Shown one piece after another: positions 20,143 through 24,137 of a stretch of DNA of 41,335 nucleotides. The stretch is from Flavobacteriaceae bacterium (GTDB taxonomy: Bacteria; Bacteroidota; Bacteroidia; Flavobacteriales; Flavobacteriaceae), in NCBI GenBank assembly GCA_023700885.1, contig JAMPYA010000002.1, positions 1 to 41,335 of the forward strand. Reading direction: 5' to 3'. Under the pieces are notes generated by a model that ran no database searches, had not been told where the DNA came from, and saw only the letters and a list, made by a program, of their open reading frames with translations. Both the position numbers and the translations under genes were made by a program. Numbering within the stretch: the first letter of the stretch is position 1; every line of letters starts with the position of its first letter.

Positions 20143-21522
20143 ATGAAATCAAATTATTTTACAATTCTATTAGCTGTATTGCTAATCACAGTATCTTGTG
20201 AAAACGACATCAACGAAATTCCAGAATCAGTTCAAAACTTTGAACAAGGAAGATTTGTACCAAATCAAGTACTTATTAAGTTTAAAGACGGGGATAAATC
20301 AACCGGAAGAACAGTTGAAAATGCCTTGTCGCTAATTAATGGCGATGTCATCGAATTAATTAATACAAGTGCAATGAGAACCGACAATGCTAGAAAAGGA
20401 AGTAAAAGTGGTGAACTTTTGCTAGTGACCTCAAGTTTAGGAACTATCGAAGCTATCGAAATCTTGAAAACCTTATCTGAAATAGAGTATGCAGAACCTA
20501 ACTGGATATATCAACATTTTGCAACTTCTAATGATACTTACTTTACAAATGGATCTCTGTGGGGCATGTACGGTGATACTTCCTCACCAGCTAACCAATT
20601 TGGCAGCCAAGCAGCAGAAGCCTGGGCTAATGGAAAAATTGGTTCAAACACTGTTTATATCGGGATTATCGATGAAGGTTATATGTACACCCACGAAGAT
20701 TTAGCCGCCAATGCCGGTACTAATACTGGAGAAATTCCAAATAATGGAGTTGACGATGATCGTAACGGACTTATTGATGATGTATATGGATGGGATTTTG
20801 ACGGCAACAACAATACCGTTTTTGATGGTGTAGATGATGACCACGGAACACATGTTGCAGGTACAATTGGTGGTGTTGGAGGAAACGGAAAAGGAGTTGC
20901 AGGTGTAGTGTGGAATGTTAAATTGATGAGTGCTAAATTTTTAGGCAATACTGGTGGTACAACTGTAAATGCTATTAAAGCAGTTGATTATTTTACCGAT
21001 TTAAAACAACGCGGTATCAATATCGTGGCAACAAATAACTCTTGGGGCGGAGGCGGATTCTCTCAAGGATTATATGATGCTATTGAAAGAGCTAATTTGC
21101 AAGGTATTCTTTTTGTTGCTGCTGCGGGTAATGCAACCAATAATAATGATACAACACCTTCTTATCCTGCTTCTTATCTAAATTCAAATATTATTGCTGT
21201 GGCCTCTATTACCAATACCGGAGCATTAAGTAGCTTTTCTAATTGGGGTGCAAATAGTGTTGATCTTGGCGCTCCCGGATCAGGCATTTGGTCTACAGTT
21301 CCTGTAAGATCTAAAGGAAAAGTAGTATCTGGTTATGCCAGCTATAACGGAACTTCAATGGCAACACCACATGTAGCCGGAGCAGTAGCTTTGTATGTAT
21401 CCTCTAATCCTGGAGCTTCTGTAAGTACTGTTAAAAATGCCATTTTAAACAGTACTGTTCCAAATACTTCATTAAGTAATAAATGTGTTACAGGAGGTAG
21501 ATTAAATGTAAGTGGGTTTTAA
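20143..21522 (+). CDS. S8 (subtilisin-like) serine peptidase, predicted lipoprotein
   Basis: Lipobox VSCEND; prodomain NQVLIKFKDGD; catalytic motifs GIIDEG, DDHGTHVAGTIGG, NGTSMATPHVAGAVAL. Confidence 0.92.
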   Translation: MKSNYFTILLAVLLITVSCENDINEIPESVQNFEQGRFVPNQVLIKFKDGDKSTGRTVENALSLINGDVIELINTSAMRTDNARKGSKSGELLLVTSSLGTIEAIEILKTLSEIEYAEPNWIYQHFATSNDTYFTNGSLWGMYGDTSSPANQFGSQAAEAWANGKIGSNTVYIGIIDEGYMYTHEDLAANAGTNTGEIPNNGVDDDRNGLIDDVYGWDFDGNNNTVFDGVDDDHGTHVAGTIGGVGGNGKGVAGVVWNVKLMSAKFLGNTGGTTVNAIKAVDYFTDLKQRGINIVATNNSWGGGGFSQGLYDAIERANLQGILFVAAAGNATNNNDTTPSYPASYLNSNIIAVASITNTGALSSFSNWGANSVDLGAPGSGIWSTVPVRSKGKVVSGYASYNGTSMATPHVAGAVALYVSSNPGASVSTVKNAILNSTVPNTSLSNKCVTGGRLNVSGF

Positions 21523-21693: not shown

Positions 21694-22200
21694 TTGGATA
21701 TTTTACTATTAATTGTCGGATTTCTATTTCTTGTAGTAGGATTATTTGGAGCGATTTTGCCCATATTACCTGGACCTCCACTAAGTTGGATTGGCTTATT
21801 ATTAATTAATTTAACATCTATAGTACCTATAAATTATACTTTATTAGGAATAACATTATTTATAGCCATATTAGTTACAATTTTAGATTATGTTATTCCG
21901 GCTTGGGGAACCAAAAAATTTGGAGGTTCTAAATATGGTGTGATAGGAACCACTTTAGGATTATTTATAGGCTTAATAATTCCTATTCCTTTTGGAATTA
22001 TTATCGGAGCATTTTTGGGAGCATTTATTGGCGAACTTTATAATGAAAGGAGAAATACCCAAAAAGCGCTAAAAGCATCGTTTGGATCTGTTGTTGGATT
22101 TTTCATTTCAACAGGTTTAAAACTATTAGTTTCAATTGTATATTTAGTAATGTTTATTAAAATATTTTGGGAAAATAGAACCTCATTTATAGGTTTCTAA
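21694..22200 (+). CDS. DUF456-family integral membrane protein
   Basis: LFGAILPILPGPPLSWIGLLLI and repeated Gly-rich TM segments typical of DUF456; TTG start inferred (in-frame stop just upstream). Confidence 0.82.
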   Translation: MDILLLIVGFLFLVVGLFGAILPILPGPPLSWIGLLLINLTSIVPINYTLLGITLFIAILVTILDYVIPAWGTKKFGGSKYGVIGTTLGLFIGLIIPIPFGIIIGAFLGAFIGELYNERRNTQKALKASFGSVVGFFISTGLKLLVSIVYLVMFIKIFWENRTSFIGF

Positions 22201-22204
22201 AATC

Positions 22205-22235
22205 AAAAAAAGCATCCCGAACTACGGGAAGCTTT
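22205..22235 (-). terminator. Intrinsic terminator of the candidate ncRNA
   Basis: Minus strand AAGCTTCCCG-TAGTT-CGGGATGCTTTTTTT; the long T-run is on the minus strand only. Confidence 0.78.
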
Positions 22236-22310
22236 TCATTGGTTACTTAAAACCGTGACATCTCTTTCGAAATGCCAACAACACAACTAAACTGTATTTT
22301 TCAATACAGC
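22205..22310 (-). ncRNA. Candidate free-standing structured small RNA
   Basis: Minus strand: GCTGTATTGAAAAATACAGTTTAGTTGTGTTGTTGGCATTTCGAAAGAGATGTCACGGTTTTAAGTAACCAATGAAAAGCTTCCCGTAGTTCGGGATGCTTTTTTT. Hairpin CTGTATT-GAAA-AATACAG (22292-22309), hairpin GGCATTTC-GAAA-GAGATGTC (22257-22276), then a terminator. Confidence 0.65.
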
Positions 22311-22313
22311 AAA

Positions 22314-22321
22314 CAAATATA
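22314..22321 (-). promoter_or_regulatory. Candidate -7 box (TATATTTG on minus) of the ncRNA
   Basis: Plus strand CAAATATA, placed 4 nt before the first hairpin; TTG (CAA on plus) at 22338-22340. Confidence 0.6.
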
Positions 22322-22405
22322 CATCTTTTTTCAAATCAACTTTCTTTTAACAACAATTAAAACAACTTTTTAGCTTAAAGAATTCCATTATTTTTGAATT
22401 GATTG

Positions 22406-22439: not shown

Positions 22440-24137
22440 ATGCAATTATCAGAACAGGAAATTATTCGAAGAGAATCTTTACTTAAATTACGTGAATTAG
22501 GTATTGATCCTTATCCAGCTGCAGCGTTTAAAACAACAGCATATATTCATGATATATTATCCAATTTCTCAAAATTTGAAGGTACGGAGGTTATACTTGC
22601 TGGAAGAATTATGAGTAGAAGAATCATGGGTAAAGCCTCTTTTGCTGAATTGAAAGATTCATCTGGTAGAATGCAAATTTATATCAACAGAGATGAAATT
22701 GCTCCTGGAGAAGATAAAGAACTTTACAATACTGTCTTTAAAAAATTATTAGATATCGGAGATATTATAGGAATTAAAGGTGAGGTTTTTAAAACTCAAG
22801 TTGGCGAATTCTCTGTAAAAGTTAAAGAACTTACTATTTTAACAAAATCTTTACGTCCGCTTCCGGTGGTAAAAATTGATGCAGAGGGTAAAGTTCATGA
22901 CGCATTTAGTGATCCTGAAATGAGATATCGCCAGCGATATGTAGATTTAATTGTAAATGATCACGTAAAAGATACTTTTCTAAAACGAACCAAAATAACT
23001 AACTCAATTCGTAATTTTTTTAATGATAGAAATTATTTGGAAGTTGAGACACCTATTTTACAACCAATCCCTGGAGGTGCAGCTGCAAGACCATTTTTAA
23101 CACATCACAATGCATTAAATATTCCTTTGTATTTGAGAATTGCCAATGAATTATATTTAAAAAGATTAATAGTTGGTGGTTTTGATGCTGTGTATGAGTT
23201 TGCAAAAGATTTTAGAAATGAAGGAATGGATAGAACTCACAATCCAGAATTTACTGTTATGGAACTCTATGTTGCATACAAAGATTATAATTGGATGATG
23301 GAAATGACGGAGCAATTACTAGAAAAAGTGGCTATTGATTCAAATAAATCTACAGAAGTTACTGTTGGTAAAAATATCATCAATTTTAAAGCTCCTTATA
23401 AAAGAATTCCTATACTTGATGCAATTAAAGAGCACACAGGTTTTGATATTGCAGGAATGAATGAAAATCAACTGAAAGAAGTGTGCAAAAAATTACATAT
23501 TGAAGTAGAAGATTCTTACGGAATAGGAAAAATGATTGATGAAATCTTTGGTTCAACATGCGAACATCATTACATTCAACCTACTTTTATTATAGATTAT
23601 CCTAAAGAAATGAGTCCTTTAACTAAAGAACATCGTTCTAATCCAGCATTAACAGAGCGTTTTGAATTGATGGTTAATGGAAAAGAATTAGCTAATGCTT
23701 ATTCTGAGTTAAACGATCCTATAGATCAACGTGAACGTTTTGAAGATCAACTTAATCTTTCAGCTAAAGGTGATGATGAAGCCATGTTTATTGATCAAGA
23801 TTTTTTAAGAGCTTTAGAGTACGGCATGCCTCCTACTTCAGGAATCGGAATTGGAATTGACCGATTAGTGATGTTAATGACCAATAATAGCTCTATACAA
23901 GAGGTATTATTCTTTCCACAAATGCGTCCGGAAAAAAAAGCAGTTGAATTAAGTGAAGAAGAAAAAGCGGTGCTTGAAATTATAAAAGCAAATGCTCCTA
24001 TCGATTTGAATGATCTAAAATCACAATCAGAATTGAGTGGCAAAAAATGGGATAAAACCATTAAAGGATTGACTAAAAACAATTTAGTAAAAGTTATTCA
24101 AACTGAGAGCGGATTAATTGTAGAATTAAGCAATTAA
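22440..24137 (+). CDS. lysS: Lysine--tRNA ligase (class II) with C-terminal extension
   Basis: [40 protein letters not shown]; motif 3 [23 protein letters not shown] followed by ~65 additional residues. Confidence 0.96.

Follow-up and report, generated by a model that had tools for sequence, protein, structure and literature searches.

A structured small RNA gene of the Flavobacteriaceae and its predicted pairing with the pnp leader

Does the short interval between a DUF456-family gene and lysS encode an RNA of its own, and on which molecule would such an RNA act? The question arises from a 41,335-nt stretch of Flavobacteriaceae DNA (hereafter the window, by which we mean the stretch at its full length), for which a preliminary description had proposed a structured, standalone RNA on the minus strand between the two genes and no target. 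The link to pnp is new here. We consider it likely that the RNA is a trans-acting, base-pairing small RNA (sRNA) of the Flavobacteriaceae with the pnp mRNA as its main conserved target, and that the pairing lowers the synthesis of its product, the polynucleotide phosphorylase PNPase.

Gene anatomy and conserved structure

The features of the locus are listed in Table 1. The -7 box, the hairpins, the GGTT..AACC pairing and the terminator with seven Ts are all present on the minus strand as previously described, the DUF456 gene is convergent relative to the RNA, and the length of the predicted transcript agrees with the ~100 nt suggested before. The TTG that had been read as a -33-like element has fared less well. 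Promoters of the Bacteroidota have a spacing of 17-23 nt between the -33 and -7 elements, and the TTG precedes the -7 box by just 15 nt, which makes a -33 element doubtful; nor is it conserved in sister species. An AATG lies between the GGTT/AACC hairpin and the terminator, and segment B spans the 3' edge of hairpin 3 and the 5' edge of the terminator. The 5' hairpin has differing sequences with a like fold in other genera.

Table 1. Features of the RNA locus and its neighbours in the window.
Feature	Position	Strand	Basis
-7 promoter box TATATTTG	22314..22321	-	Bacteroidota TAnnTTTG type
TTG, possible -33 element, weak (15-nt spacing)	22337..22339	-	sequence reading
Predicted sRNA transcript, ~100-110 nt	22205..22313	-	from the -7 box to the last T of the terminator; family-wide homologues
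5' hairpin CTGTATT-GAAA-AATACAG, 7 bp, optional, lysS-type loci only	22292..22309	-	fold
Segment A AGUUGUGUUGUU, unpaired, GU-rich, near-invariant	22277..22288	-	column conservation
Hairpin 2, GGCATTTC-GAAA-GAGATGTC, 8 bp with G-U pairs	22257..22276	-	fold and covariation
Hairpin 3, GGTT..AACC	22241..22254	-	fold and covariation
Segment B CCAAUGAAAAG, conserved	22232..22242	-	column conservation; pairing predictions
Intrinsic terminator AAAAGCTTCCCG-tagtt-CGGGATGC + T7	22205..22236	-	sequence and fold
DUF456-family protein gene, convergent neighbour	21694..22200	+	family name from the preliminary description
lysS (lysyl-tRNA synthetase), divergent neighbour	22440..24137	+	name from the preliminary description and sequence reading

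The RNA of the window folds with an energy of -38 kcal/mol, as compared to -20.6 ± 3.3 kcal/mol in 200 dinucleotide shuffles (z = -5.4), none of which equalled it, and the fold is thus far beyond chance. Covariation was measured in 46 sequences aligned to the covariance model R2 (alignment A7), with 500 shuffles and slid-partner controls for comparison. In this alignment, which was fitted to the structure and therefore inflates the values somewhat, 94% of the cells were in standard pairs, versus 82% in the shuffles and at most 57% with slid partners, and the covariation score was 0.405 versus 0.156 in the shuffles; the folds of the individual sequences are independent of A7. Compensatory changes, which had been put forward as a test of the structure, were found at 14 of the 20 pairs, altered on both sides, and none of the 500 shuffles reached the observed value on any of five covariation measures. 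All 6 modelled pairs of hairpin 2 were altered on both sides (96.6% of cells paired), as were 6 of 9 pairs in the terminator (97.5%) and 2 of 5 pairs in hairpin 3 (84.4%). The MAFFT alignments A4 and A5 were dropped because hairpin 2 was misplaced in them.

Fold energy and covariation both uphold the view of a structured RNA under selection. Two GAAA loops of the GNRA type had been offered as a sign of that selection; these are incidental and lack conservation, hairpin 2 of a sister species being GCATTTC-AAAA-GAAATG and the loops of other genera quite different. A peptide encoded by the small ORF ATG-AAA-AGC-TTC-CCG-TAG was also considered and rejected, as homologues lack the ATG or the stop at that place, and no conserved start codon was seen when the coding potential of the homologues was judged by eye. 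Next to the DUF456 gene is an ORF for a subtilisin-like serine protease (20143-21522, plus strand), in which a signal peptide and the catalytic-looking motifs DDHGTHVAGT and GTSMATPHVAG were recognized by eye.

The RNA is absent from Rfam. A search of the whole window with the Rfam 15 covariance models identified no family at or above its gathering cutoff, in line with the earlier statement that no signatures of SRP RNA, tmRNA, 6S RNA and RNase P were recognized, and the matches at lax thresholds were at chance level. The best of these was Phe_leader (21.8 bits versus a gathering score of 55); the GcvB model scored 14.4 bits versus 42, below the level of homology, and the 6S-type motif Bacteroidales-1 scored 14 bits only, on the wrong strand. 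Membership in flavo-1, which had been suggested, found no match even at E up to 10. Flavo-1 and Bacteroidales-1 are RNA motifs of the Bacteroidota too, but do not match the RNA of the window.

Distribution and genomic arrangement of the homologues

Plain BLAST recovered near relatives only, plus matches to the terminator alone (L006-L009), which were discarded as generic GC-hairpin terminators. The near relatives served to build the first covariance model, with R2 and R3 as later models. A degenerate DNA pattern made from the conserved parts of the sRNA, GTTTAGTTGTGTTGTTN{15,45}CCAATG, was scanned against 85,462 species genomes and returned 37 loci, namely 28 sRNA genes and 9 pnp leaders, and nothing else. 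The 28 homologues were from Lutibacter, Tenacibaculum, Polaribacter, Aureivirga, Mangrovimonas, Zhouia, Capnocytophaga, Myroides, Pustulibacterium and others. Hairpin 2 and a second hairpin before the terminator were present in every homologue inspected, with the exception of L026, which has hairpin 2 only; the sequence of hairpin 2 differs almost everywhere while its structure is kept.

Matches to R3 were obtained in 256 of 301 Flavobacteriaceae genomes (E ≤ 0.01), and in 2 of the ~143 genomes searched outside the family, both marginal. The figure of 27/301 given by model R1, which was built from one alignment and lacked hairpin 2, was a model artefact. A more sensitive search of the genomes negative for R3 and of one weak match revealed variant copies in many of them. 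The sRNA gene, ~100 nt in length and structured, is thus carried by nearly all Flavobacteriaceae. The variants L333, L335, L338, L344 and L345 have a larger hairpin 3 or an extra stem in its place and keep GTTGTGTTG and CCRATG; they score poorly with R3, and a second model is needed for them. Some genomes contain two copies and one (G124) has six R3 matches, and tRNA-Asp and the sRNA were seen tandemly duplicated as a unit (L020/L037/L075 in Pustulibacterium, L036/L038 in G102, and L181/L196); the copy number of the pair therefore varies.

The homologues fall into two locus types. Lutibacter, Tenacibaculum, Polaribacter, Aureivirga and the lineage of the window have lysS-type loci, at which the RNA adjoins lysS, usually with DUF456 on the opposite side; 28 of 29 such loci, the window included, have a TAnnTT(T/C)G box no more than 45 nt ahead of the seed. 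At tRNA-type loci, the RNA is directly downstream of tRNA-Asp(GTC) and the promoter box is absent (33/33 loci). In some of these loci about ten bases separate the RNA from the tRNA, which suggests that it has to originate from the tRNA transcript. Many genomes (L029, L034, L174, L182, L188 and others) have a GC hairpin and T run, like those of a terminator, between tRNA-Asp and the RNA, so that read-through or an unseen promoter would be needed there; no promoter box was observed after the spacer hairpin in these loci. By prediction, the gene is short and non-coding and has a promoter of its own and an intrinsic terminator; the tRNA-linked copies are without the box. Of the standalone RNA gene proposed previously, the gene itself is borne out by the conserved -7 box, the family-wide homologues and the covariation, whereas the independent arrangement holds for the lineage of the window only, since the RNA follows tRNA-Asp in most genera examined. 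The two types offer a clean case of an sRNA gene that switches its mode of expression while the seed is kept.

The position behind tRNA-Asp in many genomes and the strong terminator at the end would also fit an RNA that does not act in trans, and that serves as a structured terminator or trailer of the tRNA-Asp transcript or as an insulator of the DUF456-lysS interval. We regard this as highly improbable, because the invariant unpaired segment GUUGUGUUG and the complementarity to pnp would be superfluous for a terminator, many tRNA-Asp copies already have a terminator of their own ahead of the RNA, and the lysS-type copies have their own promoter.

In E. coli, the tRNA-trailer sRNA 3'ETS-leuZ acts as a sponge of other sRNAs. 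The RNA studied here resembles it in many genera by its location directly behind a tRNA gene with no promoter box of its own, and by analogy the tRNA-linked copies may be released by tRNA processing. It differs from 3'ETS-leuZ by its three hairpins, by a terminator belonging to the RNA itself, by the mRNA-like target and, in the lineage of the window, by a promoter of its own.

Complementarity to the pnp leader

The pnp leader contains two conserved segments to which AGUUGUGUUGUU and CCAAUG(A/G)AAAGC of the RNA are reverse-complementary, and the two matches are arranged in antiparallel order. Segment A is predicted to pair with AACAACACAAC, an unstructured C/A-rich stretch, and segment B with CUUUUCAUUGG, or over a longer site with GUUUUUCAUUGG, just upstream of the A site; the two predicted contact sites in the leader are AACAACAC and CAUUGG. 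By prediction, the RNA thus exposes a conserved seed that is complementary to an mRNA from another locus. TTGTTGG and CCAATGA had earlier been interpreted as an alternative pairing within the RNA. This intramolecular pairing is not conserved, most homologues reading GTTGTTTTG or GTTGTTTGAC; what is conserved in both segments is their match to another RNA.

All 9 matches of the blind pattern scan that were not sRNA genes lay antisense in pnp leaders, directly ahead of a gene that begins with MIPKVTQEIIDLGDGR and is placed after rpsO, and each of the 8 pnp-matching genomes searched also contains the sRNA. Further pnp genes were recognized by a match to NCBIfam TIGR03591. The leaders in the family carry AGTTTTTCATTGGtc...ACAACAACACAAC...GACCATTGTTTAA, and that of the window's own genome reads ACTTTTCATTGGAAACCGTAACAACACACAACTAC. 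The exact sequence AACAACACAACTAA occurs nowhere in this genome besides the sRNA gene, with no enrichment over a reversed control; an interrupted version, AACAACACACAACT, stands in its pnp leader.

Of 201 family genomes, 131 contain the antisense motif TTTCATTGGN{4,34}ACAACACAAC, and none of the 201 contains the reversed control of this motif. Among 30 motif loci inspected, at least 27 belong to pnp leaders, at 62-133 nt ahead of the AUG, and 2 are the sRNA gene read antisense. By a hand tally of the 201 genomes, the strict leader motif was present in 121 of 175 genomes with an R3 match versus 10 of 26 without, and a closer search identified a variant sRNA in 9 of these 10. Both motifs were found at 13 of 15 evaluable pnp loci inside the family versus 0 of 14 outside it. 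The two family genomes without both motifs, G019 (L107) and G013 (L110), have no recognizable sRNA, and are candidates for joint losses of leader motif and sRNA. In a group of longer leaders, ~96-133 nt (L202, L209, L215, L217, L225, L228), a second hairpin region, likewise conserved, separates the C/A stretch from the start codon; this group possibly represents a different regulatory layout.

The best A site was downstream of the best B site, as expected for antiparallel order, in 31 of 32 genomes, and the joint pairing energy was matched by at most 4 of 200 shuffled leaders in any of the 32. An unconstrained cofold of the window sRNA with its own pnp leader gave a bipartite complex with hairpin 2 intact and a gain of about -18 kcal/mol, for which none of 100 shuffles was as good. 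The contacts were segment A with the C/A stretch, CGGUUU with AAACCG, and CCAAUGAAAAG with CUUUUCAUUGG. Because segment B reaches into the base of the terminator and into hairpin 3, these must open before it can pair. With full intramolecular competition, the cofold gain exceeded that of more than 95% of the shuffles in 23 of the 32 genomes and was not significant in nine (median z of -2.3 over the 32).

Target ranking was performed in a relative, G165, and covered 1.95 of its 2.74 Mb (71%). The pnp leader was first of 1510 ORF-upstream regions by the joint score and second by segment B alone. Segment A alone was rejected as a target predictor, its complexity being too low, and ranks pnp only 32nd. 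The many better partners of segment A, together with the GU-rich seed, which is typical of multi-target sRNAs, would fit a pnp leader that is a sponge or decoy tuning the sRNA, with other C/A-rich 5' UTRs or protease mRNAs of the Rfp18 type (see below) as the main targets. We consider such a role improbable, since the bipartite motif is found essentially only at pnp, and pnp is first by the combined score.

We also compared the pairing of sRNAs to leaders swapped among the species. The pairing energies were similar for matched (-34.8 kcal/mol) and mismatched (-35.0 kcal/mol) pairs in the 32 genomes, and there was no overall preference for the own leader because both sites are nearly invariant. 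Changes in the core of segment B at CCAAUG are mainly A-to-G (CCGAUG, CCAGUG), whereby G-U pairing with the leader is kept. Compensatory coevolution of sRNA and mRNA is hinted at in single genomes only, G280, G271 and G247; segment A is changed to UGUGUGUUGUUUU in G280, the pnp leader of which reads AAAACAACACACACA.

Proposed effect on PNPase synthesis and comparison with known RNAs

From these sequence relationships, the sRNA probably sets how much PNPase is made. Segment A would pair with the C/A-rich stretch and segment B with the site just upstream, while hairpin 2 would remain folded as a spacer between the two duplexes; site B would be part of the pnp mRNA only if transcription starts upstream of CAUUGG. 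The predicted sites are too far from the AUG for simple occlusion of the ribosome. Pairing may mask a C/A-rich region, ~50-80 nt ahead of the AUG, that enhances translation or serves as a standby site, and/or the duplex may be a substrate for RNase III, in either case with less PNPase as the outcome. PNPase is a 3' exonuclease and a major RNA-degrading enzyme, and it may itself degrade the sRNA, which makes a homeostatic loop plausible. Duplex cleavage by RNase III and sRNA decay by PNPase are plausible additions to the model. In the case of GcvB and gltI, a C/A-rich element 45 nt upstream of the start codon is a translation enhancer, and ACAA repeats are cited there as elements that favour initiation where a Shine-Dalgarno sequence is lacking (PMC3879156). 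The site in the pnp leader is similar to the GcvB target in nature and position, and masking of an enhancer or standby region is thus the most economical model.

The sRNA might alternatively pair with pnp and activate or protect it, by freeing the 3' arm of a leader hairpin and thereby exposing the start region, or by blocking decay. Such a hairpin, CAUUGGUC...GACCAUUG, is predicted just before the initiation region, the sRNA would pair with its 5' arm and loop, the 3' arm GACCAUUGUUUAA is conserved in many leaders, and the pairing site is upstream of the ribosome footprint. However, several leaders have no 3' arm (G174, G247), and C/A-rich leaders under GU-rich sRNAs are enhancers, the masking of which represses in the case studied best (PMC3879156); activation is therefore unlikely in our view.

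A wider circuit can tentatively be outlined for the family, in which the sRNA, made together with tRNA-Asp in most genera examined, would pair twice with the pnp leader and set the level of PNPase, and PNPase would degrade or mature the sRNA. Such a circuit is possible rather than probable; it would couple the supply of an RNA exonuclease to tRNA output, and autoregulation would proceed from a separate RNA in place of the enterobacterial cis-duplex. Few sRNAs with conserved targets are known in the Flavobacteriia, and the present one occurs almost throughout a large environmental family, is outside Rfam and has a single, sharply defined candidate target. With pnp, which encodes a central RNA-decay enzyme, as this candidate, PNPase control in flavobacteria becomes directly testable.

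In the open-access papers, we found no link between an sRNA and pnp in the Bacteroidota. The transcriptome of Flavobacterium psychrophilum includes 85 new sRNAs (Rfp1-89), some of which are conserved in other species, and the main text of that study makes no mention of pnp (PMC9723704). Rfp18 is described there as a structured, trans-acting RNA with several stem-loops that is conserved in the genus Flavobacterium, and in these respects is like the sRNA of the window; it affects protease mRNAs, and its reported targets, metalloproteases and an adhesin paired via the third stem-loop, differ from the candidate target pnp (PMC9723704). The RNA of the window may be the same as one of the Rfp sRNAs, such as Rfp18.

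The RNA is like GcvB of the enterobacteria in the GU-rich unpaired seed between hairpins, the intrinsic terminator and a predicted C/A-rich target well upstream of the start codon. The seed of the window sRNA is, in contrast, bipartite, and its candidate target is an enzyme of RNA degradation rather than the amino-acid transporters targeted by GcvB. In E. coli, the amount of PNPase is controlled via an RNA duplex in the pnp leader, with PNPase itself as the regulator. The duplex is intramolecular in that system, whereas in the Flavobacteriaceae the partner strand would be provided by a separate sRNA.
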